Below, in pieces: positions 4,917 to 63,770 of a DNA stretch of 64,000 bases. The stretch covers positions 124,001 to 188,000 of the forward strand of contig JAPKMT010000001.1 in assembly GCA_026645735.1 (NCBI GenBank), written 5' to 3'. The notes under the pieces are model-generated. The model searched no databases. It saw nothing but the letters and a program-made list of their open reading frames with translations, and was not told the origin of the DNA. The stretch's first letter is position 1; the number at the start of each line of letters is the position of its first letter. The translations under genes were made by a program, and so were the position numbers. This DNA is from Flexilinea sp. Its GTDB lineage: Bacteria; Chloroflexota; Anaerolineae; Anaerolineales; Anaerolineaceae.

Positions 4917-5041
4917 AAGTGATCCGAAATATGAAAAGATTTCATTGTTGTTCTTATGGTTTTGCGCTTCGCGCTAACATTACACCACAACCAGGTTTTT
5001 TCTTTTTATTCGAAAAGAATATCCATATTTCGAATTATTGG
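4917..5041 (-). repeat. Palindromic MITE-like element, copy A
   Basis: AAGTGATCCGAAATATGA...CCATATTTCGAATTATTG ends; hairpin core TTTTGCGC-TTC-GCGC; flanks GAATTACTA/GAATCACTA. Confidence 0.75.
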
Positions 5042-9820: not shown

Positions 9821-9924
9821 CAGTAATTCAAAAAATGGGGAGGATACTTTGTTGTGGCGATGTTTTTGCGCTCCGCCAAAAACCACATAACAACCATTAA
9901 TCCTTCTTATATTTTGAATCGTAG
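9821..9924. repeat. Palindromic MITE-like element, copy B (short type, degraded)
   Basis: CAGTAATTCAAAAAATGG...ATATTTTGAATCGTAG; central TTTTTGCGC. Confidence 0.65.
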
Positions 9925-11660: not shown

Positions 11661-12229
11661 TGGATCATCGAGAACAATTAATCAGTACCTATTTGCTCGA
11701 ATTAAAAAAATCACTGGATCAGTTGCCTGTTGGTCAGATACTTCAGGCCGTGGATGTGATTCAAAAAGCCAGACTGAAAAAAAAGACGATTTTTACGATG
11801 GGAAACGGAGGAAGCTCTGCCACCGCCAGTCACATGGGATGTGATTTTTCAAAAAATACCCGCAGTCCGGAACTGCCTGCCATTCGCATGATTTGTTTGA
11901 GCGATAGTACACCCACTATCACAGCATTTGGGAATGACGAAGGATACGAAACTATCTTTTCAGAACCATTAAAAGCTCTGGCCAATGCAGGAGATGTGCT
12001 GATCGCCATTAGCGGAAGTGGAAATTCTCCGAATATCCTTCGCGGTTTGGAAACTGCAAAAAGTCTGGGAATGACGACAATCGGACTTTCCGGGTTCAAA
12101 GGCGGAAGGATGATTCATATGGTTGATATTCCGATTAATATCGATACTGACAGCATTGAACGTGTCGAAGACATTCATATGATTTGTGATCATGTGATGA
12201 CCATGGTTATGCGCGAATCGTTTCAATGA
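11660..12229 (+). CDS. SIS-domain phosphosugar isomerase (GmhA-like)
   Basis: FTMGNGGSSATASHMGCDFSK, ISGSGNSPNILRG; TAATG overlap with the upstream gene, so start is set at 11660. Confidence 0.85.
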   Translation: MDHREQLISTYLLELKKSLDQLPVGQILQAVDVIQKARLKKKTIFTMGNGGSSATASHMGCDFSKNTRSPELPAIRMICLSDSTPTITAFGNDEGYETIFSEPLKALANAGDVLIAISGSGNSPNILRGLETAKSLGMTTIGLSGFKGGRMIHMVDIPINIDTDSIERVEDIHMICDHVMTMVMRESFQ

Positions 12230-12352
12230 AAGCGATTTGCATGAAGAAAGGGATTATTTGTTGTTGTATTGTTTTTGCGCTTTGCGCAAAAACAATACAA
12301 CAACAATTTTTCTCTTATTTCTAAAAAGGTTTTACCAAATTTCGAATTACTG
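12230..12352 (-). repeat. Palindromic MITE-like element, copy C
   Basis: Perfect 23-bp hairpin TTGTTGTTGTATTGTTTTTGCGC-TTT-GCGCAAAAACAATACAACAACAA (12258-12306); right end CCAAATTTCGAATTACTG. Confidence 0.85.
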
Positions 12353-12382
12353 CTTCAATGAAGGGATAAACCTGAAAGAATA

Positions 12383-14487: not shown

Positions 14488-15479
14488 GCCTTAGTTTCTC
14501 CTGCAGTTTTCAGAATAGTGTGATATAAAACCGGAAAAGTGACTGCATGATCGCCGCGGACGTAATAACTGACGCCGCCATCTGCAACGGTTCGGACCAA
14601 TATCGTTTTATAAGGGCGGAAATAATAGGCTGCCTGATTCTTTGGAATTTCCTGATGCCAGTCTTCACCCAAATCCTGCAGATCGAATACGGCAGTTGTA
14701 AAATGCCGGATTTCTCTTCCTTCCTGATATGCCGCATTTCTGCTCATTGCCAGCGCTTTCAGATATACTTCAGGTCCCATAATGGCGGTCCCGTAACTGA
14801 GATAAACACCATTCTCCAGATGATCAATCGTATTGGCAAAAACCAGAAAATCCTGGTAGGTAGCTTTTCCTAATCTTTGCGGATCACAGTTTGGATGTTC
14901 ATGAATGATATCACTGCCGATACTGACGTGAACAGTGACCGGGATCTGCATTTCATAAGCCTGAGCCAGAAGGCTGGTTGATCGGAACGGGTACTCGCGT
15001 TCAACAATCGCCTTTCCAACAGCTTCTCCCAGTCCGAGTCCCTGATCTGCACCTTCGTTGATAAGGTCATTTAATTCGCCGGACTCTTTCCATAAACCGA
15101 ATTGCCCTTCGTGAATATAGCGGGCAACGCTTTCTGTGGTTGCGCCGATGCGGGCTAATTCATAATCGTGGATACAACCTGCGCCATTCAGTCCGATATG
15201 AGTGATGAAACCGTGTTTCATCAGATCAATGATCAGGGGATTCATCCCTTTTCTGAGCAGATGTGCCCCCATCATCAGGATGATCGGGGCATTTTGTTTT
15301 TTAGCATTGATAATTGCAGCACTGATTTTTTCAATGGACGGATCAGCAAAATCAGGAACGGGATCATCCATCGAGACCAGCATCTGTGGTAAATGGAGAT
15401 CATGAATCCGTTCGGAAATCGGTTTGATCAAAAGACGTGAACGATCAAAAATTTTGTATGGCATAGGGTTTTCCTTCAA
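14484..15479 (-). CDS. Deoxyhypusine-synthase-like protein (stand-alone)
   Basis: MMGAHLLRKGMNPLIIDLMKHGFITHIGLNGAGCIHDYELARIGATTESV; VHVSIGSDIIHEHP; paralogous to the N-terminus of 10005-11660. Confidence 0.8.
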   Translation of the reverse strand: MKENPMPYKIFDRSRLLIKPISERIHDLHLPQMLVSMDDPVPDFADPSIEKISAAIINAKKQNAPIILMMGAHLLRKGMNPLIIDLMKHGFITHIGLNGAGCIHDYELARIGATTESVARYIHEGQFGLWKESGELNDLINEGADQGLGLGEAVGKAIVEREYPFRSTSLLAQAYEMQIPVTVHVSIGSDIIHEHPNCDPQRLGKATYQDFLVFANTIDHLENGVYLSYGTAIMGPEVYLKALAMSRNAAYQEGREIRHFTTAVFDLQDLGEDWHQEIPKNQAAYYFRPYKTILVRTVADGGVSYYVRGDHAVTFPVLYHTILKTAGETKA

Positions 15480-15592
15480 ATGAGAAGTTTATGCAAAACT
15501 GAAAGATAACAATCCCGGGCGCTTGTTGGGAGAAAATTTATTAAATACTTCTCATCTTCAGCCGCTTAGACAGTACCTTTTCAATAAGAAAC

Positions 15593-16420
15593 TCACTTCG
15601 CAGGGAACAGGATCTGCAGCAGCGATTCAGTGACCCGAAAATCAGGGATGATCAGATCTGCTCCAGCCTGAATTAATCGGCTGCGTTTCCATTCATCAAT
15701 TCCCTCGCGATCGGCCTCATTGGTCGCAACGCCTATTGCAATGCCGTTGACTGATTTGGTATCTTCAATCTCTACAAAACCGTCCCCAAATGCGACAAAT
15801 TCAGGCCCGCTGAGGTGGTTTTCTGTGATGATCCGCTGGATCACCATCTTCTTTGAAAAGTTAACGTAATCGTCCTGGGCACCATAGATGCCGGTAAAAT
15901 AGGGCGTCAGATGCAGTAATTCAGCTTCATCCAGCACATATTTTTCATCTGTGCCGGAAGCGAGATAACATTTAACGCCATGTGACTGAAGCCCTTCCAG
16001 AATCGAAATGGCACCTGGAACCAGAAAATCCTCCGGATGGATGTGCTGACTGCGCAGTCCATCCAAACGATATTGGATTCGTTTTAGAAGTCTTTCGTGG
16101 TATTCATCTTTATAGGTGAGCGGATCTTCGGCGTTTCCTCTCCGCTTCTTCACTTCCTCAGCCAATTGTATCATCTGGAAAATAGTCTGTTTTCCGGTTA
16201 ACCGTGTAACAAAATCGCGCACAATTGCTGTAATTGTTTCTTTATCTTCATGGTCAGGTGTCTGCATCAGAATTTCGATCATCATCGGGATCATAATCGC
16301 CTGCCAGCCTTCCCGAATCAGAGACAAGGTCCCGTCAAAGTCAAATAACGCATATCGCACGGCTTCTCGTTCTGGAAGCTGATGAATTATTTCAATTCTG
16401 CTTTCTTCAATGATTTTCAT
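15593..16420 (-). CDS. HAD family hydrolase
   Basis: ALFDFDGTLSLI motif; YLASGTDEKYVLDEAE; FGDGFVEIE. Confidence 0.88.
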   Translation of the reverse strand: MKIIEESRIEIIHQLPEREAVRYALFDFDGTLSLIREGWQAIMIPMMIEILMQTPDHEDKETITAIVRDFVTRLTGKQTIFQMIQLAEEVKKRRGNAEDPLTYKDEYHERLLKRIQYRLDGLRSQHIHPEDFLVPGAISILEGLQSHGVKCYLASGTDEKYVLDEAELLHLTPYFTGIYGAQDDYVNFSKKMVIQRIITENHLSGPEFVAFGDGFVEIEDTKSVNGIAIGVATNEADREGIDEWKRSRLIQAGADLIIPDFRVTESLLQILFPAK

Positions 16421-16484
16421 TTTCGATTACCTTTTCATCATTTTCTAAGAAATATTGTACCTTATGGACAAGATAAATGATTTC

Positions 16485-16588
16485 CAGCAATTCGAAATGT
16501 GTGGAAGAGGTTGCATGGTTGTATTGTTTTCTGATAAGCCCAAAAACAATACAACAACGAATAATTCTCCCCTAATTTCGAATCACTG
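16485..16588. repeat. Palindromic MITE-like element, copy D (short type, loop altered)
   Basis: CAGCAATTCGAAATGTG...CTAATTTCGAATCACTG; 13-bp arms GTTGTATTGTTTT/AAAACAATACAAC. Confidence 0.75.
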
Positions 16589-16687
16589 ACATGCCATTGA
16601 TCCTCTGCCATGGAAAAGGTAAAATGATAGATGCAATAAACAATAAAAGGATATATTTTCCCGGGAAAAAGAAGAAGAGGATCAATA

Positions 16688-17671
16688 ATGAATAAACAGA
16701 ATCGTGAAAAGTATATTGGACATGAATCGCAGCTCTATGGCGTTGAAGAACATCGCCTGATGGGAGGCAAAGGGGATGGTATTCGTTTGTTCCAGGTAAA
16801 AAATGGTTTAGGCCTTGAGTTTACGGTATCTGCGGATCGCTGTGCGGATATTTCCCGGCTTTCTTTTCAGGGTATGAATTACGGATTTTTTGCTGTCAAT
16901 GGATATAGCGCACCGGCTTATTATGATGACAAGGGAAATGGCTGGTTGAAGTCCTGTAATCTGGGATTCATGGTTACATGCGGGTTAACGAACGTCGGTA
17001 TCCCTTCTGAAGATGCCGAAGAATCTCTCGGGCTGCATGGCAAAGCCGGGCATACACCGGCTGAAAATATTTACTGGGACATGGATCAGGAAAAAATCCA
17101 GATTCATGCATTCATCCGCCATGCAGGCATATTTGCGGAAAAATTGCTGCAAAAACGAATTATTGAATGTTCTTTGACAGAAAATAAAATCTCGATCATT
17201 GATCGAATTCGTAATGTCGGTGATCGGACAACTCCGCTCATGATCCTGTACCATATGAATATGGGCTATCCGCTGTTGGATGAGGACAGCATTCTGGATA
17301 TCCGGTCGGACGAAGTGATTCCCAGAAATGAACATGCCCGTAAAGGATTTGCTGAATGGAATCAGGTAATTCCCCCGCAGGCTGGATATGAAGAAATGTG
17401 TTATTACCATCACTTCAAAAATGAAGGACTGGCGAGAATTTTTCAGCCAAAATATCAAAAAGGATTGGCCATTCATTTTGATCCAAAAAGTCTGGACGAA
17501 TTCGTTCAATGGAAAATGATGGGTGTCAAAGATTATGTCATGGGACTGGAACCTGGCAATTGCGAAGCAGACGGCCGTGACAAGATGCGTGCTGAGGGTA
17601 AACTGAAATTTATTCAACCTGAGGAAGAAAAAAGTTTCCGCATCGATTTGGAGATGATAGATCATTTGTAA
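16688..17671 (+). CDS. DUF4432-type aldose-epimerase-fold protein
   Basis: LEFTVSADRCADISRLSFQGMNYGFF; LYHMNMGYPLLDED; GLEPGNCEADGRD. Confidence 0.75.
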   Translation: MNKQNREKYIGHESQLYGVEEHRLMGGKGDGIRLFQVKNGLGLEFTVSADRCADISRLSFQGMNYGFFAVNGYSAPAYYDDKGNGWLKSCNLGFMVTCGLTNVGIPSEDAEESLGLHGKAGHTPAENIYWDMDQEKIQIHAFIRHAGIFAEKLLQKRIIECSLTENKISIIDRIRNVGDRTTPLMILYHMNMGYPLLDEDSILDIRSDEVIPRNEHARKGFAEWNQVIPPQAGYEEMCYYHHFKNEGLARIFQPKYQKGLAIHFDPKSLDEFVQWKMMGVKDYVMGLEPGNCEADGRDKMRAEGKLKFIQPEEEKSFRIDLEMIDHL

Positions 17672-17737
17672 AAAGGAAAATCGTCATTCATGATGATTTT
17701 GGTATCAAATATACGAAACAAAATTGAGAGGATATGC

Positions 17738-18499
17738 ATGTCAAATTTTGAGGTATGGCGAGCTGCTGATCCTGTGTCTGCAGGAAAAATCGGCGCTGAA
17801 ATTATTTCGAAAACAATTATAAACAAACCGGATTGTCTGCTTGGATTGGCTACCGGATCAACACCGGTTCCGGTTTATAAAGAATTGGTGCTGCAACACA
17901 AAAAAGAAGCCCTCGACTTTTCAAAAGTCCGGACAGTCAATTTGGATGAATATGTTGGACTTCCCGCGGATCATCCTCAAAGCTATCATCATTTTATGAT
18001 GGATAATCTTTTCCGCCACATCAACATCAATCTGCAGAACACCCGAATTCCGGATGGCATGGCGACCGATTTATCTGCACATTGCGACCAATACGAACAG
18101 CAGATTAAGAAATGGAACGGAATTGATCTGCAGCTTTTAGGAATTGGCCTCAATGGCCATATCGGTTTTAATGAACCGGCATCTGTTTTTACTCGCAGAA
18201 CCCATTTGACCAACCTGACTGAAAGTACGCGCAAAGCCAACCAGCGCTTTTTTACTTCGATTGATGAAGTTCCACGGCAGGCAATTACAATGGGCATCGG
18301 GACGATTATGGCGGCAAGTCAGATTCTGCTCGTTTGTACCGGTGTCAAGAAAGCGGATATTTTGGAACGCACGTTTTTTGGGCCAATCGATCCAATGGTA
18401 CCGGCATCAGTCCTGCAGTTTCATCAGCATGTGACGGTGGTTGCTGATGATGCGGCAGTAAAAACCATCCTGCAAAAACACCCCGAATTTACCGACTGA
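17738..18499 (+). CDS. nagB: Glucosamine-6-phosphate deaminase
   Basis: LGLATGSTPVPVYKEL, NLDEYVGL, GIGLNGHIGFNEP; RBS GAGAGG upstream of ATG 17738. Confidence 0.9.
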   Translation: MSNFEVWRAADPVSAGKIGAEIISKTIINKPDCLLGLATGSTPVPVYKELVLQHKKEALDFSKVRTVNLDEYVGLPADHPQSYHHFMMDNLFRHININLQNTRIPDGMATDLSAHCDQYEQQIKKWNGIDLQLLGIGLNGHIGFNEPASVFTRRTHLTNLTESTRKANQRFFTSIDEVPRQAITMGIGTIMAASQILLVCTGVKKADILERTFFGPIDPMVPASVLQFHQHVTVVADDAAVKTILQKHPEFTD

Positions 18500-18662
18500 C
18501 CGTGGATTTCCGAACTGATTTACAAACCCATTTTAACGTTCTGTTCTGATCCGTCCATCGAATAAAGAGAAAACACAAATCCTTCCTGCTTTTTGGATCG
18601 CTGTATTTGGATGGAGTGTTTACGAAGAAGTTTTTTTATAAACAGAAGAGAGTGTATTAAAA

Positions 18663-19271
18663 ATGCTGACTGTTGACAAAATTCGAAGCGTCGACAAAGA
18701 TAAGCTGGATGAAATCAGCAGCGGACTTGAATCGAATGATCTCAGCCTGTTGGTGTCCTGCTTAAATGAAAAGGATGATAAAATCCGCTATCCGGCACTG
18801 CTCCTGCTCCAGCATCGATCAGTAGACCGCGATGATGTATTCTCCTATTGGGATCATTTCACGAAAAAACTGCCGGATGCGAATTCTTTTCAGCGAAGTA
18901 TCGGGTTGATGATGATCGCTGTGAATGCACGCTGGGATCATGGCGACCGTATGGAAAATATGCTCGATGATTATCTCTATTGCCTGCATGATGAGAAACC
19001 GATTACTGTACGGCAATGTATTCAGGGACTCCTGCAGATTGTGCCCTTTCATCAAAAACTACGTCTGCAAATCGCAGACCGGTTGATGGAATTGGATCTT
19101 AAGGGAATCCGGGAGAACATGCGAAAGTCGGTTCTAACGGATATTCTAAATGTCCTGATTCTAATCCGTCAGGATGGAACAACCAATTCAATCGAACAAT
19201 ACATCGCTGAGGCATTGACCGGTGGTATTTTGGATCGTAAAACTGTTCAGCAGTTTCAGCATCAGCTTTAA
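18663..19271 (+). CDS. Hypothetical helical (HEAT-like) protein
   Basis: ORF with coding character; no recognised family. Confidence 0.55.
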   Translation: MLTVDKIRSVDKDKLDEISSGLESNDLSLLVSCLNEKDDKIRYPALLLLQHRSVDRDDVFSYWDHFTKKLPDANSFQRSIGLMMIAVNARWDHGDRMENMLDDYLYCLHDEKPITVRQCIQGLLQIVPFHQKLRLQIADRLMELDLKGIRENMRKSVLTDILNVLILIRQDGTTNSIEQYIAEALTGGILDRKTVQQFQHQL

Positions 19272-19392
19272 ATCATGATTCCGGTGTGCAAAGAATTTTA
19301 ATGATTCCATGACAGAATACTTTTTGGGAAAAAAACGTATATAGCTTTACAGGTTATTCATTCGCATTTTATATTTATAATATGGAGCAGCA

Positions 19393-19929
19393 ATGATGAA
19401 AACAGTAGTTATCTATCAGTCCAAGACAGGTTATACAAAAAAATATGCACAGTGGATCGCGGATGCACTGCAGGCAGATTTGACAGAAAATTCAAAGATT
19501 AAAGATCGTGAAATCACATCTTACGATGCGATTGTTTATGGCGGCAGCCTTTTTGCCACCGGTATCCTTGGTTTGAAGCGCATTAAGAAGCTGTTGCCGT
19601 CATTGACCGGCAAAAAGTTTGCCATTTTCGGTGTAGGACTTACGCCCACCCGTGAGGATGCGATCAATGGTGTCAAACAGCACAATCTGAAGGAAGACGA
19701 ATTGAAAATTGTCCATTTCTTTTATTTCCGCGGCGGTTTTAACCTGAAAAAATTGCCTCTGATCGATCAACTGATGATGAAGATGATGAAAGCATCGATT
19801 GAGAAAAAAAAGAAATCCGGTAAACTGCTCACAGAGGATGAAAATGGTATGCTGGAAGCATTTGATGTTGTATCCGATTTTACAGATCGCAGCGCGATTG
19901 AACCACTGCTCTCCTTTATTCGATCCTGA
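19393..19929 (+). CDS. Flavodoxin-domain protein (protoporphyrinogen-oxidase HemG-like)
   Basis: VVIYQSKTGYTKKYAQWIADAL; YGGSLFATGILG. Confidence 0.85.
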   Translation: MMKTVVIYQSKTGYTKKYAQWIADALQADLTENSKIKDREITSYDAIVYGGSLFATGILGLKRIKKLLPSLTGKKFAIFGVGLTPTREDAINGVKQHNLKEDELKIVHFFYFRGGFNLKKLPLIDQLMMKMMKASIEKKKKSGKLLTEDENGMLEAFDVVSDFTDRSAIEPLLSFIRS

Positions 19930-19954
19930 TTCAGAAAACTTTCGGAGTTTACCA

Positions 19955-20662
19955 ATGAAAATCACCGTTCTGCATGGACAGATGCATCATGGCAGTACCT
20001 GGCATATTACGCGGCTTTTCCTGGATGCGCTTCACACTGAAACCTCCCAAGTTTTTGAATACTCCTTTCCAAAAGATGGACCGTTACCTTGTATCGGTTG
20101 TTATCAGTGTTTTCAAAAAGGGGAGAATTCTTGCCCCCATGCAGAAACTGTACAGCCAATTGCAGAATCGATCGAGGAATCCGATCTGGTCATTCTGGAA
20201 TCCCCCTGCTATGTGTATGGTATGAGCGGACAACTGAAATCGTTTTTGGATCATATGGCTTATCGCTGGATGTCCCACCGGCCACATCCCTCCATGTCCC
20301 GCAAGATTGGTTTGTGTATTTCTACAGCAGCCGGATTGGGATCCGGAAGAACTGCAAAGGATATGCAGCAAAATCTTTTCTTTTGGGGAATTTCCAGATT
20401 GATGCGCTACAGTGTCAATGTGGCCGCGATGAACTGGGAATCGGTTGACCCAAAACGGAAAGCCCGTATCGAAAAAGATGTTTCCAGGATTGCATCTCAG
20501 ATTCGGAAAAACATCGGAACTGCGAAACCCGGTCTTAAAACGAGATTCTTGTTTTCAATCATGCGATTGAATCAAAAGGGAAACCATTGGAATCTGACAG
20601 ACCGCAATCACTGGGTAGCCAATGGATGGCTGCCGGCAGATAAAACGGGCCAGGGTGGATAA
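19955..20662 (+). CDS. NADPH-dependent FMN reductase/flavodoxin-like protein
   Basis: ITVLHGQMHHGSTWHITRLFLDAL; CIGCYQCF; LESPCYVYGMSGQLKSFLDH; start moved to ATG 19955. Confidence 0.85.
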   Translation: MKITVLHGQMHHGSTWHITRLFLDALHTETSQVFEYSFPKDGPLPCIGCYQCFQKGENSCPHAETVQPIAESIEESDLVILESPCYVYGMSGQLKSFLDHMAYRWMSHRPHPSMSRKIGLCISTAAGLGSGRTAKDMQQNLFFWGISRLMRYSVNVAAMNWESVDPKRKARIEKDVSRIASQIRKNIGTAKPGLKTRFLFSIMRLNQKGNHWNLTDRNHWVANGWLPADKTGQGG

Positions 20663-20698
20663 TCGTCGCCATCCGGATGTTTTTCAAGAGGATTTTCC

Positions 20699-20735
20699 AA
20701 AAAGACAGCCGCATTTTTTGCGGCTGTCTTTTTGT
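20699..20735 (+). terminator. Intrinsic terminator
   Basis: AAAAAGACAGCCGCA-TTTTT-TGCGGCTGTCTTTTT. Confidence 0.9.
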
Positions 20736-20737
20736 TT

Positions 20738-20838
20738 CAGTGAGATAAAACACGGGAAAATTATTTGTTATTGTGTTATTTTTGCGCGAAACACAAGATT
20801 ATCATAATAAAAGATTTCTCCTCCATTTGAAATGACTG
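20738..20838. repeat. Palindromic MITE-like element, copy E (degraded)
   Basis: CAGTGAGATAAAACACGG... TGTTATTTTTGCGC ... CATTTGAAATGACTG. Confidence 0.55.
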
Positions 20839-20856
20839 GTTCATCCTTCGAAATTG

Positions 20857-20946
20857 TTGATTAAAGTAATCAATTCTTGCTTTTCTAAAAAAATTGGCTA
20901 TAATCTAATTGTTGAAGGGTGACAAATGTCATATAATAAATATGAC
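20857..20946 (+). promoter_or_regulatory. Promoter with operator-like palindromes
   Basis: TTGCTT-16 nt-TATAAT (20877-20904); TTGATTA-AAG-TAATCAA (20857-20873); GTCATAT-AATAA-ATATGAC (20928-20946). Confidence 0.6.
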
Positions 20947-21058
20947 TAAAATAACCTGAAAAAATCGGTTGTATCAGGCAATCGATGAAAAATTGGAGAG
21001 GGTGGATGAAGCAAATTGCTTGATTACCATCTGTCCAGAATGGATGAAGGAGATTTTT

Positions 21059-21178
21059 ATGGCATTGTTATATACACTATTGGTCGTTGTCAGTTATATC
21101 GCCATCGCATTCGCAGTCAATCTTGTTTCAGCTCCGGCAGAACCTTGCACTGTGAATGTGGAATCGGATGAAAAATAA
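21059..21178 (+). CDS. 39-aa single-pass membrane microprotein
   Basis: MALLYTLLVVVSYIAIAFAVNLVSAPAEPCTVNVESDEK; GAAGGAG 6 nt upstream of ATG. Confidence 0.55.
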   Translation: MALLYTLLVVVSYIAIAFAVNLVSAPAEPCTVNVESDEK

Positions 21179-21327
21179 GCAACCCTCCGATTCTTCCTGT
21201 AATGAATCGTATGGGGTTGGTTGCAGAAGAGAAGCACCAACCACAGCACCTCACTTCACAAAAACATACGAATGATAATGAAATGTGAGAAATTTACAGG
21301 ATTTGTAAGAAAGAAAGGAAGGAAATC

Positions 21328-21396
21328 ATGTTAGCAGCAATTTCAGCAATTTTATTGGTACTGCTTGCCACTTTTGTAAATAATTACCACGAATAA
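21328..21396 (+). CDS. 22-aa single-pass membrane microprotein
   Basis: MLAAISAILLVLLATFVNNYHE; strong RBS AAGGAAGGAAATC. Confidence 0.5.
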   Translation: MLAAISAILLVLLATFVNNYHE

Positions 21397-21447
21397 GCAG
21401 AAAAATCTGTCTCATAAACGAGGCAGATACAACAAAATGCAATCTTC

Positions 21448-21481
21448 TGGGGGCATCTGATAAAACCAGGTGCCCTTTTTT
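21448..21481 (+). terminator. Intrinsic terminator after the microprotein pair
   Basis: GGGGGCATCTG..CCAGGTGCCCTTTTTT. Confidence 0.75.
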
Positions 21482-21491
21482 AATTCAAGGA

Positions 21492-22931
21492 TTATCTCTG
21501 AAGCGACAGCAGTTCATACCAAAAATCATCATGAGGCGAGACCATGGCAAGGCAGACACGAGCTTTTCCGCTGGCTGGATCAACAATGCCGGCTTCCAAC
21601 CTGTTCATGCCTTCCAATAAGATTTCCTGCGGGATGATAATTGTCACGGGAAAATCGATCCCGGGCTGAATATCGATCAGGTGCATCGGAATCGGCATGA
21701 GGTTTTGCTGGCCATCTTCTCCGACAATTCTCAGATATGCTTTCCAGTCAAAATAGAAGGGTGCAATCCCATCGTTGTGCCAGGTCAAGGTGAGCTGGTA
21801 ATTCCCATTCTTCGTCTCAGAGATTTCACTTTTTGAGATGCGCAATCTGTAACCGATCATGCGGTTTACCTGATCCAGCGCTTGCTGCAGGTCTCCATCG
21901 CGTTCCACTTTGACAAAACTGCCCGGCCCGATCCAACTGGTGTGGGATCGGGCAAAAAGATCCAGTGTCTGTGGCAGCAGTGTGTCCAGTAATTGCTGAT
22001 ATTTCATTGTTGTCGATAATTCTCCGCCGATTGGATTGGATCGCCAGGCTTCCGGCATCGGGCGGAGCAATGCTGATTCAGCGGGGTGTGCTTTATCTTC
22101 TCCGGTTTCAATCCAGGTCAACCATTCTTCGGTTGGCTCCAATTCTCCGGCAGTGTCGTTGAATAATCCGACTGCGATGTTTCCGGCGGCTGCAAATGGA
22201 CGGCGCAGCATCAGTTTTGCATCTGGAAAAGCGGAAACATATGGAAGAATATATTGTCTGCAGACAGAAACTGGCGGCATCGGTGAAATGCTTGAATGAA
22301 TGTGCCATTCACCCCAATGTCCGAGCGAGCCAAGTTCGATGTATGCAAAGAATGGATCTTTCCCGTAGCGCTTCCCCAGCGCGGCAATCGCTTTGGCATG
22401 GGCTTCGATGAAAATCGGATTTGCGTAGTTGGGAGCGTAACCTCGTCCGTATGAAACTGCATAAGCCTTTCCGTCTTTGTCCGTGGCGTTGTAAAGCCAT
22501 TCGGGAATATCGCGATGGTTGTTCTGTCCCGGCATGTCTGTCACAAAGCGGAAAATGACATGCTTTCCCTGTTCCCGCCAGAGATCGAAATGGTTGTTTT
22601 TCTCAAATGATTCGAAGTCATAAACTCCCTGTGTCGGTTCGAATTCAGCCCACGTCAGATCTGCGTAGACCAGTGTGAACGGCTGTTCTCTTTCTGAGGA
22701 GTCGTCTGCCCATATGGCGCTGCCGATAAAAGGATTGGATATTGCTTCATCGCTTGCGGGATAGTGAAATGAGATTGATATACCGGCTGCCGATTTTGAA
22801 TTTAAACCGAGAATCCCTGAAATTCCCAAAAGAATCAAACAACGGAAAAAAAACTTCCACTTCACGTATGAAGTGGAAAAAATGCCTTTTTGAATTTGTC
22901 GATCAGGAATGCTATTTTTTGGAGTTATCAT
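21492..22931 (-). CDS. DUF4832-type secreted TIM-barrel protein, glycoside-hydrolase-like
   Basis: Signal sequence WKFFFRCLILLGISGILGL; YADLTWAEFEPTQGVYDFESFEK; FAYIELGSLGHWGEWH. Confidence 0.7.
   Translation of the reverse strand: MITPKNSIPDRQIQKGIFSTSYVKWKFFFRCLILLGISGILGLNSKSAAGISISFHYPASDEAISNPFIGSAIWADDSSEREQPFTLVYADLTWAEFEPTQGVYDFESFEKNNHFDLWREQGKHVIFRFVTDMPGQNNHRDIPEWLYNATDKDGKAYAVSYGRGYAPNYANPIFIEAHAKAIAALGKRYGKDPFFAYIELGSLGHWGEWHIHSSISPMPPVSVCRQYILPYVSAFPDAKLMLRRPFAAAGNIAVGLFNDTAGELEPTEEWLTWIETGEDKAHPAESALLRPMPEAWRSNPIGGELSTTMKYQQLLDTLLPQTLDLFARSHTSWIGPGSFVKVERDGDLQQALDQVNRMIGYRLRISKSEISETKNGNYQLTLTWHNDGIAPFYFDWKAYLRIVGEDGQQNLMPIPMHLIDIQPGIDFPVTIIIPQEILLEGMNRLEAGIVDPASGKARVCLAMVSPHDDFWYELLSLQR
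22846..22878 (-). terminator. Terminator-like hairpin inside the 5' coding region of the DUF4832 gene
   Basis: Minus strand TTCCACTTCA-TACG-TGAAGTGGAA-G-TTTTTTTT. Confidence 0.6.
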
Positions 22932-22984
22932 AAACCGCTTGCAATCCTTTTGTTCAGTAATTCGATCGGATTGGCATAACCGGA

Positions 22985-23737
22985 TTAATCAACATAGTCC
23001 CCACGGTATTGCACAATTGTCAAATCTTTGATGTTCTCAATTTTACGAATGCGATCGGTGAAGGAGAGGTCATGCTTTCGAACGCGTACTTCAACAGCCA
23101 TCTCGGTATCGTTTTTGCGCATTGTCTTGGATTTGATTTGGTATGGATTCGTTCCGAGAATTTTTCGAACTTCTTCATCGATACCCTCTCCTTCGTAGTG
23201 GAGCAGCAGGATGTACATTTCATCCCGCCCATGTTTGCGTCCGGATAATATCCACAGGAGCAGCACCATGAAAACGGATGTGAGCAAGGCGATATAGAAC
23301 ATACCAGCACCGATGGCGATTCCGGCAGCAACTGCCCAGAACAAAAACAGCAGGTCCATCGGATCCTTGACTGCGGTACGGTACCGTACAATGGAGAGCG
23401 CACCAACCATACCCAACGATAAAACAATGTTGGATTGGATTGTCACGATAATGCAGCAGGTCAGAACTGTCATCCCGGCGATGGAAATGGCAAAGGATTG
23501 GCTGTAAACCACACCGATATAGGATTTTTTATAGATGAAATACAATGCCACTCCCATCAGCAGCGACAAAAAAACGTAAATTGCGGCATTGATAATGGTT
23601 TGCAAGGATACATTCTGTAAAAAACCGCCTGCTTCCAACACAGAATTATCAAAAATATCCTGAAAAGTCAATGTACCATCCATAAAAATCCCTCCGTACG
23701 ATTTAAATTTTTCTCTCTCACTGCAGCATTGCAGCAT
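22985..23737 (-). CDS. DUF4956 membrane protein
   Basis: IVLSLGMVGALSIVRYRTAVKDPMDLLFLFWAVAAGIA motif. Confidence 0.88.
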   Translation of the reverse strand: MLQCCSEREKFKSYGGIFMDGTLTFQDIFDNSVLEAGGFLQNVSLQTIINAAIYVFLSLLMGVALYFIYKKSYIGVVYSQSFAISIAGMTVLTCCIIVTIQSNIVLSLGMVGALSIVRYRTAVKDPMDLLFLFWAVAAGIAIGAGMFYIALLTSVFMVLLLWILSGRKHGRDEMYILLLHYEGEGIDEEVRKILGTNPYQIKSKTMRKNDTEMAVEVRVRKHDLSFTDRIRKIENIKDLTIVQYRGDYVD

Positions 23738-24405
23738 AATGCATATTTTGAGGCTGCCGTCAGCATGCTGGCACGTGGCGGTAAAATGCTGCGAACAAGG
23801 TTTGGCAGAAATTCAGTAAACTTGATTTCCATAATCATCTGATCTGCCTGTAAAACCTCTATGGCAGGCAGGTCTGGATCAAACAGATCCAGCTTCCCGA
23901 ATCCGGCACGTACATGTTTATCAAACGTGATCCGCACATCCCCTTCACCAAGCGCATAGGGCTCCCGATCATAATCGACAATCAGCCGGGGACGCATGAA
24001 TTTCGAAGTACATTCATAATAGAATTCTTGCAGCAGATTGTACTTGCTTTTTTTCAGGAAATCATATTCTCCTGCGAGGATCATTTCAGTTTCACTGCGG
24101 TTAACCGGTGCGCTTTCTTTGAAAATATATTGTCCATACTTGTTTTTCCGTTCCAGCTTGATAAAACGATCCGAACAATTATAGACACGCAGGCGATATT
24201 TATGCCTCAGTAAAATGCCATCCTCTTTTTCCTGGTAGGCTGAGTTCCAGTAATCATCAAAATACAGACTGCGAATCCAGTATTCGCCGTTTTCTCCGGT
24301 GTTTTCATCCGGTGGAATAATTCCCTTCATCCGGGAGCGAAGCAAAGCCCAATCCGGTAAATTGATCAGGTATTTCAGCTCGTGACGGTAGCGGATTTCT
24401 TTCAT
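23668..24405 (-). CDS. VTC-domain (polyphosphate polymerase-like) protein
   Basis: RHELKYLINLPDWALLRSRMKGIIPPD; YWIRSLYFDD; LRHKYRLRVYN; IKLERKNKYGQY. Confidence 0.9.
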   Translation of the reverse strand: MKEIRYRHELKYLINLPDWALLRSRMKGIIPPDENTGENGEYWIRSLYFDDYWNSAYQEKEDGILLRHKYRLRVYNCSDRFIKLERKNKYGQYIFKESAPVNRSETEMILAGEYDFLKKSKYNLLQEFYYECTSKFMRPRLIVDYDREPYALGEGDVRITFDKHVRAGFGKLDLFDPDLPAIEVLQADQMIMEIKFTEFLPNLVRSILPPRASMLTAASKYALCCNAAVREKNLNRTEGFLWMVH

Positions 24406-39785: not shown

Positions 39786-39908
39786 CAGTAATTCGAAATA
39801 TGGAAATGTTTTTCGAATAGAGAAAGTAAATTTGTTGTTCTTATAGTTTTGCGCGAAGCGCAAAACTATAAGAACAACAAAGAATTCTTTTCATATTTCG
39901 AATTGTTG
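39786..39908 (+). repeat. Palindromic MITE-like element, copy F, with 9-bp target duplication
   Basis: CAGTAATTCGAAATATGG...CATATTTCGAATTGTTG; perfect 24-bp hairpin (39831-39854/39858-39881), loop GAA; flanked by GAAAACATG (39777-39785 and 39909-39917). Confidence 0.9.
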
Positions 39909-39917
39909 GAAAACATG

Positions 39918-40032
39918 TATTCGAATATGGAGAGGATAATCAACAGTTGTGCTGATGATGCACTTCACTCATAAAGATCACAACAAGTTTTCTCTTTTTT
40001 CTTAAAAGTCTTTTCCAAAACTCGAATTACTG
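39918..40032. repeat. Degenerate copy F2
   Basis: TATTCGAATATGGAG...TTTTCTCTTTTTTCTTAAAAGTCTTTTCCAAAACTCGAATTACTG. Confidence 0.6.
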
Positions 40033-40130
40033 GTAAGTTTAAGAAAACTCTGCAGGAAAAACTGAATTGATTATCATTTCGTTATTTTTATTCCTCGTTT
40101 TCTATGATGAAATCGTATCGTCAAAATTAT

Positions 40131-40251
40131 TAGCAACGAAATATGGATTAACCTTTCAATTAAAAAGAGAAAATTTGTTTTACTAATAGTTTTGCGCTTC
40201 GCGCAAAACTATTAGTAAAACAAAGAATTCTTTTCATAGTTCAAATTACAG
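40131..40251 (+). repeat. Palindromic MITE-like element, copy G
   Basis: Perfect 24-bp hairpin TTTGTTTTACTAATAGTTTTGCGC-TTC-GCGCAAAACTATTAGTAAAACAAA (40174-40224). Confidence 0.85.
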
Positions 40252-48541: not shown

Positions 48542-48611
48542 AATTTTTCCTCTCTGAGATGCATTCGGGCTTTATTGAAATTTTATGTCTACAATTCTAA
48601 TATAATTTATC

Positions 48612-48734
48612 CAACAATTCGAAATATGGATTGGCTTTTTGAATCAATCAAGAAAATTTGTTGTTCTTATGGTTTTGCGCAAAGCGCAAAACCATAAGAA
48701 CAACATAGAATTCTTTTCATTTTGCGAATTGCTG
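48612..48734 (+). repeat. Palindromic MITE-like element, copy H
   Basis: CAACAATTCGAAATATGG...CATTTTGCGAATTGCTG; perfect 22-bp hairpin 48659-48680/48684-48705, loop AAA. Confidence 0.85.
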
Positions 48735-48815
48735 TTTTTATTAAGGAAATGCAGCCTTGATTTATAATGAGCATCATATGGGAATCCATGAAGAAGAGTT
48801 GGATGAGGGGTAGAA

Positions 48816-54226: not shown

Positions 54227-54235
54227 CCCTGTTTG

Positions 54236-54358
54236 CAGCCATTCAGAATATGCGAAGAAGTATATGTTGTTGTGCTGTTTTTTCGTGAAGCGCAAAAACA
54301 ACATAACAATAAGTTTTCTCGATCGATTCGAAAGGTTGGTTCAGATTTCGAATTTCTG
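54236..54358 (-). repeat. Palindromic MITE-like element, copy I (imperfect hairpin)
   Basis: CAGCCATTCAGAATATG...CAGATTTCGAATTTCTG; arms TTGTTGTGCTGTTTTTTCGT / GCGCAAAAACAACATAACAA. Confidence 0.7.
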
Positions 54359-54446
54359 GCCCGTTAGTCATCTTTTAAGGAAAGCCGCTTTCGGGGTTAT
54401 AATCTTTCTGGCTAAATACACTAATAGAAAGAAAAAATAATCTTTT

Positions 54447-55223: not shown

Positions 55224-55333
55224 AAAGGGAGAAATGCCTTTTTGATTCTTCCAAAAAAAAATAGAGGTAAATTTTCTGTTATTTCAATTATTGAGGATAA
55301 AGTGGTTGATTCGCTAGCCTTCCCCCTGACCAG

Positions 55334-55455
55334 CAGCGATTTAAAATTTGGAAAAAAATAATTGTTGTAGTGTTATTTTTGCGCTTAGCGCAAAAATAAC
55401 ACTACAACATATTTCTCTCTTTATTCGAAAAGCTTTTCCAAATTTCGAATTCCTG
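55334..55455 (-). repeat. Palindromic MITE-like element, copy J, with near-perfect 9-bp target duplication
   Basis: CAGCGATTTAAAATTTGG...CCAAATTTCGAATTCCTG; perfect 22-bp hairpin 55363-55384/55388-55409, loop TTA; flanks CCTGACCAG (55325-55333) / ACTGACCAG (55456-55464). Confidence 0.88.
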
Positions 55456-55479
55456 ACTGACCAGGCAAATCCGAATAAA

Positions 55480-60904: not shown

Positions 60905-60946
60905 TTTTTCTCTATTCGAAAAGCACTTCCATATTTCGAATAGCTG
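60905..60946. repeat. Short hairpin-less derivative of the palindromic element
   Basis: TTTTTTCTCTATTCGAAAAGCACTTCCATATTTCGAATAGCTG. Confidence 0.6.
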
Positions 60947-61056
60947 TCAATCGGTGGTGCGTATAGATGCTGACACTAAAACCGCCGACCGGACGGCGCG
61001 GAGAGGACATGGATGGTATAATTAGTATGTTAAATTTGAGATAAAAGGCGAAAAAT

Positions 61057-63681
61057 ATGGGAAATGATGCAGTAAATTCGGTGGATATCGATCAACAAAT
61101 GCGCGTTGCGTATCTTGATTACGCAATGAGTGTGATTGTGTCACGAGCATTACCGGATGCGCGCGATGGTCTCAAACCAGTTCACCGCAGAATTCTTTAC
61201 GCAATGCAGGATATGGGCATTCGCTCCAATGGTCCGCATAAAAAATCAGCCCGTATTGTTGGTGAAGTTCTGGGTAAATATCATCCGCATGGCGATTCAT
61301 CCATTTATGATGCGATGGCTCGAATGTCCCAGGATTTTTCGATGCGTTATCCACTGGTTGACGGGCAGGGTAACTTTGGTTCTATCGATGGCGACTCACC
61401 GGCAGCCATGCGTTACACCGAAGCGCGGATTGCCTCTATCACCGATGAATTGCTGGCTGATATTGAAAAAGACACTGTCGATTTCAGTGATAATTTTGAT
61501 GGAACCTTGCGGGAACCGCTTGTACTGCCATCAAAATTGCCTAACCTCCTCCTGAATGGATCGGCTGGAATTGCCGTCGGTATGGCGACCAACATTCCGC
61601 CGCACAACTTGCGGGAAATTTCGGCGGCGATGATTTATATCATCGATAACTATGATGACATTGATAATATTTCGGTTGAAGATCTGATGCGTTTTGTTCA
61701 GGGGCCTGATTTTCCGACTGGCGGCATAATTCTTGGAAGAGAAGGAATCATGCAGGCTTATTCCACGGGACGTGGACGCGTTGTTGTACGCGGACGTACG
61801 GAAATCGAAGAGAACCGCCCTGGACGGTATGACATTATCATCAATGAAATTCCATACCAGATAAACAAGACAACACTTATTGAACGGATCGCTGAACTGG
61901 TGCGTGAAGGCAAACTGGACATGATTTACGATTTGCGTGACGAGTCCGATCGCACAGGAATGCGTATTGTCATTGAACTGAAGAAAAATGGGCAGCCAAA
62001 ACAGGTATTAAACCTGCTGTACAAACATACGATGCTGCAATCCACATTTGGTGTCCAGATGCTGGCACTGGTGGATAACCAGCCGCGCACGCTTTCCCTT
62101 AAAAAATCGCTGCAAATTTTCATTGAACACCGACTGACGGTCATTCAACGCAGATCGCGATTCGATCTGGAAAAAGCAAAAGCCCGTGCTCATATACTGG
62201 ACGGTTTGCTGATTGCTCTCGCCAATATCGATGATGTCATTGCTCTGATTCGCGCTTCCCGTGATACGGATACTGCCCGAAATGGCTTAATGGAACGATT
62301 CAATCTCTCTGAATTGCAGGCACAAGCCATTCTGGACATGCAGTTCCGCAGACTCTCTGCGCTTGAACAAATGAAAATCGAGGATGAACAACGGGAAATT
62401 GCAGCCCGTATTAAATACTTGACAGAATTACTTGCTGATCCGAAACAACAGCTCGACATCGTGAAACAGGAAACTGAAGACCTGACAGAAAAATATGGCG
62501 ATGATCGCCGGACATCCGTTGAAGCGGATGCTGTTGAGCACTTGTCAGATAGCGATCTGGTGGATGATCAGTCGGTTTTTATTACGCTGACAGAACGCGG
62601 ATATATTAAGCGCGTCAACGCAAATGTCTACCGGACGTATAACCGCGGAGCCGTCGGAGTGGCGGGCCACGGATTAAAAGAGGAAGATGAGCTTTCTAAG
62701 CTGGTCTTTGCAAATACGCATGATACAGTTCTTTTCTTTACGAACAAAGGGAAAGTTTATACTGAAAAAGTCTACCGCATCATAAAAGGAGAGCGTACAG
62801 ACAAAGGCACTCCAGTAATCAATGTGATCAACCTGGAGCCTGAAGAGAAAGTGACTGAGTTAATTGCTGTCTCCGATTTTAATCCTAAAAATTACCTGGT
62901 TATGGTCACGGCAAATGGAAAAATAAAACGCAGTCCATTAAAAGAATATGCCAACGTCCGCACGAATGGCATTAAAGCAATTCGTCTGGAAGAAGATGAC
63001 GAATTGAAATGGGTTCTGCAGACCAACGGGAAGCTGTTTATCATTATGGCAACGGAAAATGGCAAGGGTTTACGCGTTTCCGAGACGAAAATTCGGTCGA
63101 TGGGTAGAACTGCTTCCGGTGTCCGTGGTATGCGGATTGCTGAGGATGATCGCCTGGCTTCAGTGGATGTTGCAGCGGAAGCAGACTTCCTGCTGGTGGT
63201 CGGTGAGAAAGGAATCGGAAAGCGAACACCAGTGCAAATGATCCCGACACATGGACGAGCAACAAGCGGTGTGATGATTACCAACAAACGAGCACTCCCG
63301 ATTACTGGAAAGGTGATTGCTGCCTGTGTCTTACGTGAAAATTATGATGTTACATTCATCACTTCGCTAGGCAATGTGGTGCGTCTGAAAGGGGCAACCA
63401 TTCCGGTCAAAGGAAGAACAGCTCGAGGCGTTCGTCTGGTGCGGCTGACCGATGGCGCAACCGTCGCAGCTGTGACCAGTAATGATGCGGGTTTAATCCT
63501 GGACGATGTGATTCCTGAAAATGTTCTCCCGCCGGAAACGCAGGAAGATATGGCGGCTGATGCTTTTGAAGAAACGGAAGATCTTGATGAAGAATTGGAT
63601 GAAGCCGAAGAAGCGAATGACCTCCCTGAATCAGATGAAAATGAGGATATCCTTCCGGAAGAATCTGACACTGAAGAATAA
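61057..63681 (+). CDS. gyrA: DNA gyrase subunit A
   Basis: [47 protein letters not shown]. Confidence 0.97.
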
Positions 63682-63718: not shown

Positions 63719-63763
63719 CAGTAATTCTTTATTCGAAAAGCCAATCCAAATTTCGAATTGCTG
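63719..63763. repeat. Compact hairpin-less derivative of the palindromic element
   Basis: CAGTAATTCTTTATTCGAAAAGCCAATCCAAATTTCGAATTGCTG. Confidence 0.65.
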
Positions 63764-63770
63764 CGTGTTT

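Follow-up and report, generated by a model that had tools for sequence, protein, structure and literature searches.

Bacterial MITEs have been reviewed (PMC10969869, PMC2229807), and REP/REPIN elements have been described together with their RAYT (Y1) transposases (PMC3116915, PMC2817692). In yeast, homogenisation of inverted-repeat arms combined with inversion of the spacer is the signature of template switching (PMC8604942); bacterial data cited in that paper showed that template switching favoured transversions, and E. coli reporters for template-switch (quasipalindrome) mutagenesis have been constructed (PMC7202029). Monttinen and Loytynoja (2022, PMC8794818) proposed that template switching creates and maintains RNA hairpins and gives rise to the compensatory changes in their stems. 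When hairpin arms covary, this is routinely read as proving that an RNA structure is under selection; for the hairpin family described here, a copying process appears to explain it better.

The 64-kb stretch of DNA analysed (the window) belongs to the genome of a Flexilinea relative (3.35 Mb, 86 contigs; G000 in the site names below). An 874-aa protein encoded at 61057-63681 is 93% identical to a Flexilinea flocculi TC1 protein, and syntenic DNA of this genome and F. flocculi is ~83% identical, the two species thus being ~17% diverged.

Hairpins as the core of a 123-bp mobile element

A preliminary description of the window had listed five hairpins (C, F, G, H and J). All five were recovered at the positions claimed, with arms that are exact complements (Table 1), and no dinucleotide shuffle equals them in folding stability (z -8.1 to -11.2).

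The hairpin forms the centre of a MITE, a non-autonomous mobile element 123 bp long. A full copy comprises a 45-nt left part (CAGYAATTCGAAAT plus spacer), a 24-nt arm, a 3-nt loop, a second 24-nt arm and a 27-nt right part ending in ATTTCGAATYRCTG. The class assignment follows from the ends, since CAGYAATTCGAAAT on the left and ATTTCGAATYRCTG on the right are terminal inverted repeats flanked, outside the element, by a 9-bp direct repeat (the target duplication); the element is also short, multicopy (166-167 matches in 863 kb) and without a transposase gene. In a set of 146 copies, 47 have an exact flanking 6-mer in register, where chance alone predicts 0.45, and the 120-129 bp class predominates among end pairs whose target duplications match at 8-9 of 9 positions. 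Copy C has the terminal repeat ATTTCGAATTACTG at 12339-12352, and its flanks, TTTCAATGA (12221-12229) and CTTCAATGA (12353-12361), are 8/9 identical.

Table 1. Hairpins and element copies in the 64-kb window
Feature	Positions	Strand	Remarks
Hairpin C	12258-12280 / 12284-12306	.	Arms of 23 bp, perfect; loop TTT 12281-12283
Hairpin F	39831-39854 / 39858-39881
Hairpin G	40174-40197 / 40201-40224
Hairpin H	48659-48680 / 48684-48705
Hairpin J	55363-55385 / 55387-55409
MITE copy	4918-5041	-	Profile match
Partial MITE copy	9843-9924	+	Profile match
MITE copy C	12230-12352	-	123 bp, holds hairpin 12258-12306; profile match 12231-12353
Decayed MITE copy	16484-16589	+	Profile match; hairpin tip lost, both terminal repeats kept
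Decayed MITE copy	20747-20853	-	Profile match
MITE copy F	39786-39908	+	9-bp target duplication GAAAACATG on either side
Decayed MITE copy between F and G	39919-40033	-	Profile score 46.3
MITE copy G	40136-40251	+	Hairpin and profile match
MITE copy H	48611-48735	+	Hairpin and profile match
MITE copy	54235-54359	-	Profile match; several unpaired arm changes
MITE copy J	55333-55456	-	Hairpin and profile match
MITE end fragment	60906-60947	-	Profile match
MITE end fragment	63726-63764	-	Profile match

Inverted ends together with target duplications do not fit the single-stranded DNA transposition raised in the preliminary description, as elements of the IS200/IS605 or REP/RAYT type have neither; they point to mobilisation by a DDE-type transposase. 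A scan of 863 kb of this genome and 660 kb of F. flocculi revealed no excess, over the offset control, of long end pairs bearing target duplications, and no autonomous partner element. The CAG ends suggested an ISAs1-type transposase as partner, but PF13808 is absent from the genome. For IS256-like and IS4-like partners, the candidates were one PF00872 gene and one weak PF01609 match, respectively, neither of which was recognised as bounded by the element ends. F. flocculi also has repeated IS-like segments (1.3-1.5 kb), which were set aside because their ends are different.

Copy number and distribution

When the entire genome was searched with TTTTGCGCNNNGCGCAAAA (≤1 mismatch), 267 near-perfect hairpin cores were identified and none with the reversed control, so that copies number in the hundreds. 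The sample for closer analysis consisted of 863 kb of this genome, window included, and 660 kb of F. flocculi, whose sequence was extended later. A profile search gave 167 merged matches in the former and 177 in the latter, and the density is ~1 copy or fragment per 5 kb in both species. Matches were detected in 6 of the 61 genomes searched, all six from one genus. The family appears to be undescribed so far: its ends matched no described family in this analysis, a literature search on Flexilinea repeats returned nothing relevant, and Rfam gave no family match above the gathering score at the elements, the sub-threshold matches being generic hairpins. The genome of the window carries a SAM riboswitch (RF00162) at L067 19195-19299 on the + strand.

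Copies with a damaged or deleted hairpin exist. Short forms of the element, 59-93 bp long and apparently without some or all of the hairpin but with perfect 9-bp target duplications, lie at C4:21927, C22:89611 and C22:60890 of this genome (joined-stretch coordinates) and at G010:C2:409417 of F. flocculi. Also in F. flocculi (L169 / G010:C3 ~691184-692490), an IS256-like element sits inside the loop-proximal part of one hairpin, with GCGCAAA on both sides. In a hairpin of another genus relative (G008; L095, ~1515), the tip TTTTTGCGC...GCGCAAAAA is shared, while the outer arm (GACGGATATG...) is quite different, yet paired.

Covariation of the arms

The arms had been claimed to vary between copies while staying complementary, and this holds genome-wide, well beyond the window (267 hairpins; 97.0% of mid-arm positions paired). 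For 156 copies the register was well defined, and 127 of them, from the two species, were assigned to five subfamilies on their flanks only; each subfamily has its own arm consensus. Mid-arm pairing (-20 to -5) over these 127 copies exceeds that in 200 within-subfamily shuffles of the right arm (mean 80.7%, maximum 82.9%), and sliding the arm registers by 1-3 leaves only 39-64% paired. The claim of perfect pairing applies to the mid-arm; the four loop-adjacent pairs and the outermost 3-4 pairs carry many unpaired changes.

Rates were estimated from copies of this genome whose target duplications have ≤3 mismatches (n=56). Per pair of mid-arm sites, the rate of paired changes is 0.071 and that of unpaired changes 0.016, with per-site divergence of 0.122 in the spacer and 0.106 in the ends; independent sites would be expected to give 0.005 paired and 0.224 unpaired changes per pair, so that the paired rate observed is far above expectation. 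Unpaired arm changes as frequent as flank changes had been named in advance as the outcome that would speak against the claim. In the mid-arm they are far rarer (0.008 per base against 0.122 in the spacer), but at the hairpin tip the flank rate is much more nearly reached (0.121 unpaired changes per pair). The paired rate is higher where the spacer has diverged more (rho 0.42, p 7e-7) and amounts to 0.55-0.7 of the rate in the spacer or the ends, a value somewhat below neutral that leaves room for constraint.

Among 98 copies with arms perfectly paired over -22 to -5, 61 arm types were distinguished, 49 of which were seen once; many matched changes are therefore private rather than a few inherited variants. 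These singletons bear on ectopic gene conversion between dispersed copies, by which whole hairpins would be swapped with both arms together. Hundreds of similar donors are available for such exchange, and some copies bear the arm type of another subfamily; at C44:44521 (joined stretch, L078-L081) and F. flocculi G010:C2 ~589219, apparently the same site, the arm classes differ between the two species, through either conversion or independent insertion. However, the 49 singleton types have no donor within the sample, and conversion tracts would normally take adjacent flanks along, which makes gene conversion a very improbable source of the pairing.

Gradient along the stem and age of insertions

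In the target-duplication copies of this genome, 64 paired and 14 unpaired changes fall in the mid-arm, compared with 0 and 27 in the four loop-adjacent GCGC pairs (Fisher p 4e-15). The contrast persists when only G/C sites of the mid-arm are used (p 6e-11), and it has the same direction in F. flocculi (p 2e-4). By position, paired changes are nearly absent from -1 to -7 and common from -8 to -21, and unpaired changes predominate again at -22 to -24. The loop-adjacent GCGC may be hypermutable (CpG), which covers the rate there but not the absence of paired changes.

Target duplications provide a clock, at 0.097 mismatches per site. Unpaired changes at the tip run at about this rate, whereas those in the mid-arm lie about 6 times below it. 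Unpaired changes grow with the number of target-duplication mismatches and paired changes do not, so many of the latter may be older than the most recent insertion; for dating paired changes, the duplications have too little power.

The age relation bears on the idea that pairing is kept only in the mobile lineage, where transposition would pick intact hairpins or regenerate one arm while resident copies decay. This idea agrees with the subfamilies being defined jointly by arms and flanks, and with paired changes being equally common beside perfect and older target duplications while unpaired ones rise with mismatches. Yet in resident copies the unpaired mid-arm changes stay far under both the clock and the tip, orthologous resident copies differ by paired changes (see below), and hairpin-less copies of 40-93 bp carry good target duplications. 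We regard maintenance in the mobile lineage alone as improbable.

Mutation spectrum and loop inversion

Among paired mid-arm changes, transversions outnumber transitions (64 to 44), whereas flank changes comprise 581 transitions and 417 transversions; with so many transversions, G-U intermediates cannot explain the paired changes. Unpaired mid-arm mismatches divide into 22 G.T, 20 A.C and 30 others; the near-equality of G.T and A.C indicates that neither RNA strand is favoured, with no sign of wobble tolerance on one strand. The wobble-tolerant, transition-rich compensation on one strand that marks a structured RNA was thus not seen.

The loop is inverted between copies, a hallmark of template switching. 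Loop words occur about as often as their reverse complements (GAA/TTC 35/29, AAA/TTT 17/11, GGA/TCC 15/12, AGA/TCT 6/4), with few intermediate words between the classes, and copy pairs at a flank distance ≤0.12 have reverse-complement loops in 25 cases and the same loop in 19.

These patterns weigh on the main rival to template switching, namely selection on the fold of every resident copy, which might act as an RNA stem in mRNA stability or termination, with unpaired mutants purged and compensations fixed. Mid-arm pairing, the scarcity of unpaired mid-arm changes relative to the clock and the very stable structure are all what such selection would produce, and in the window larger ORFs flank the copies and never contain them. 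A general terminator role is unlikely, though, because the neighbouring genes are mostly divergent or co-directional. The closing GC pairs decay at the clock rate and uncompensated, a neglect hardly to be expected of a stem under selection; transversions outnumber transitions among paired changes, wobble mismatches have no strand bias, loop orientation is near-random, and two-step compensation through deleterious intermediates would be too slow for the frequency of paired changes. Selection on the fold is accordingly an unlikely explanation.

Orthologous sites

Orthologous copies were required to share element boundaries, because synteny misled: many doubly occupied sites are independent insertions with other boundaries or orientation. 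Only a handful passed. The copy at C11a:16224 is identical in both species. At C11a:22846, the flanks are nearly identical between species, and the perfect mid-arms of this genome (GTTGTTGTGATATTTTT) correspond to a mismatched left arm in F. flocculi. Both sites lie within a recombination mosaic, C11a:22846 at a tract edge. A T-A to A-T exchange separates the orthologs at C11a:113991; those at C11a:52473 show several adjacent paired differences, the inner 13 bp being perfectly paired in this genome, and half of the hairpin has been lost from this genome at C11a:65924. The three informative pairs (C11a:113991, C11a:52473 and C11a:22846) fit a paired evolution of the arms in place, although they are few.

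The mosaic itself occupies G000:C11 ~14600-24200 (L066-L067), where tracts 100% identical to F. flocculi alternate with stretches of 80-90% identity. This suggests recent recombination between the two species.

Template switching as the probable process that keeps the arms complementary

The preliminary description had offered two alternatives, a selected fold or a process that restores the perfect palindrome. Of these, the latter is better supported by the evidence: it is likely that the arms stay complementary mostly by template switching (quasipalindrome correction) within a MITE, and not by selection on the fold. Template switching is favoured because paired changes exceed half of the single-site flank divergence and are transversion-rich, wobble mismatches have no strand bias, the stem tip is not maintained and the loop is inverted between copies. 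The frequency of paired changes is roughly what a neutral one-step process would produce. We infer the single events behind the paired changes, and the polymerase mechanism, from what is directly observed, namely the element and its target duplications, the covariation, the gradient along the stem, the loop symmetry, the spectra and the few paired differences between orthologs. Our confidence is held at this level by the lack of a trend of paired changes with duplication age, the somewhat sub-neutral paired rate and a comparison made between species.

On this model, a nascent strand that reaches the palindrome during replication would pair, close to the loop, with the opposite arm and use it as template. 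A mid-arm mutation would then be either erased or copied to the partner arm in one step, and the two paired mid-arm sites would behave as one nearly neutral site. The loop-adjacent pairs would serve as the priming stem and, not being rewritten, would mutate independently; switching of the template strand could also invert the 3-nt loop. There is about an even chance that template switching is frequent enough for each hairpin to evolve like one nearly neutral site, the conversion zone lying ~8 to 20 bp from the loop, and that the family is a natural gauge of template switching. If true, this would be a large-scale case of strong covariation without a selected RNA structure.

Comparison with known systems

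With more than 100 sampled copies and insertion age gauged independently from target duplications, the family could serve to measure how often templates are switched in nature, where the tracts lie and how the loop inverts; it also calls for caution in covariation tests on mobile hairpins. The template-switch mechanism is already published; it is the MITE family itself that appears to be new.

Like the reviewed bacterial MITEs, the element is short, non-coding, present in high copy and mainly intergenic, with terminal inverted repeats and target duplications; unlike them, it has a 24-bp near-perfect palindrome at its centre, and no autonomous partner was found in the sequence scanned. It shares with REP/REPIN elements the hundreds of intergenic palindromes, but differs from them in its inverted ends and 9-bp target duplications, the features indicative of a DDE transposase. 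Both hallmarks of template switching in E. coli and yeast, arm homogenisation and short-spacer inversion, recur here; whereas single events are not observed, the element offers a long-term footprint with a position gradient over more than 100 natural copies in a Chloroflexota genus. Monttinen and Loytynoja (2022) likewise ascribed paired 'compensatory' changes and loop inversions to copying, in their case in rRNA and microRNA genes; ours is a mobile element of DNA for which no RNA function is known.
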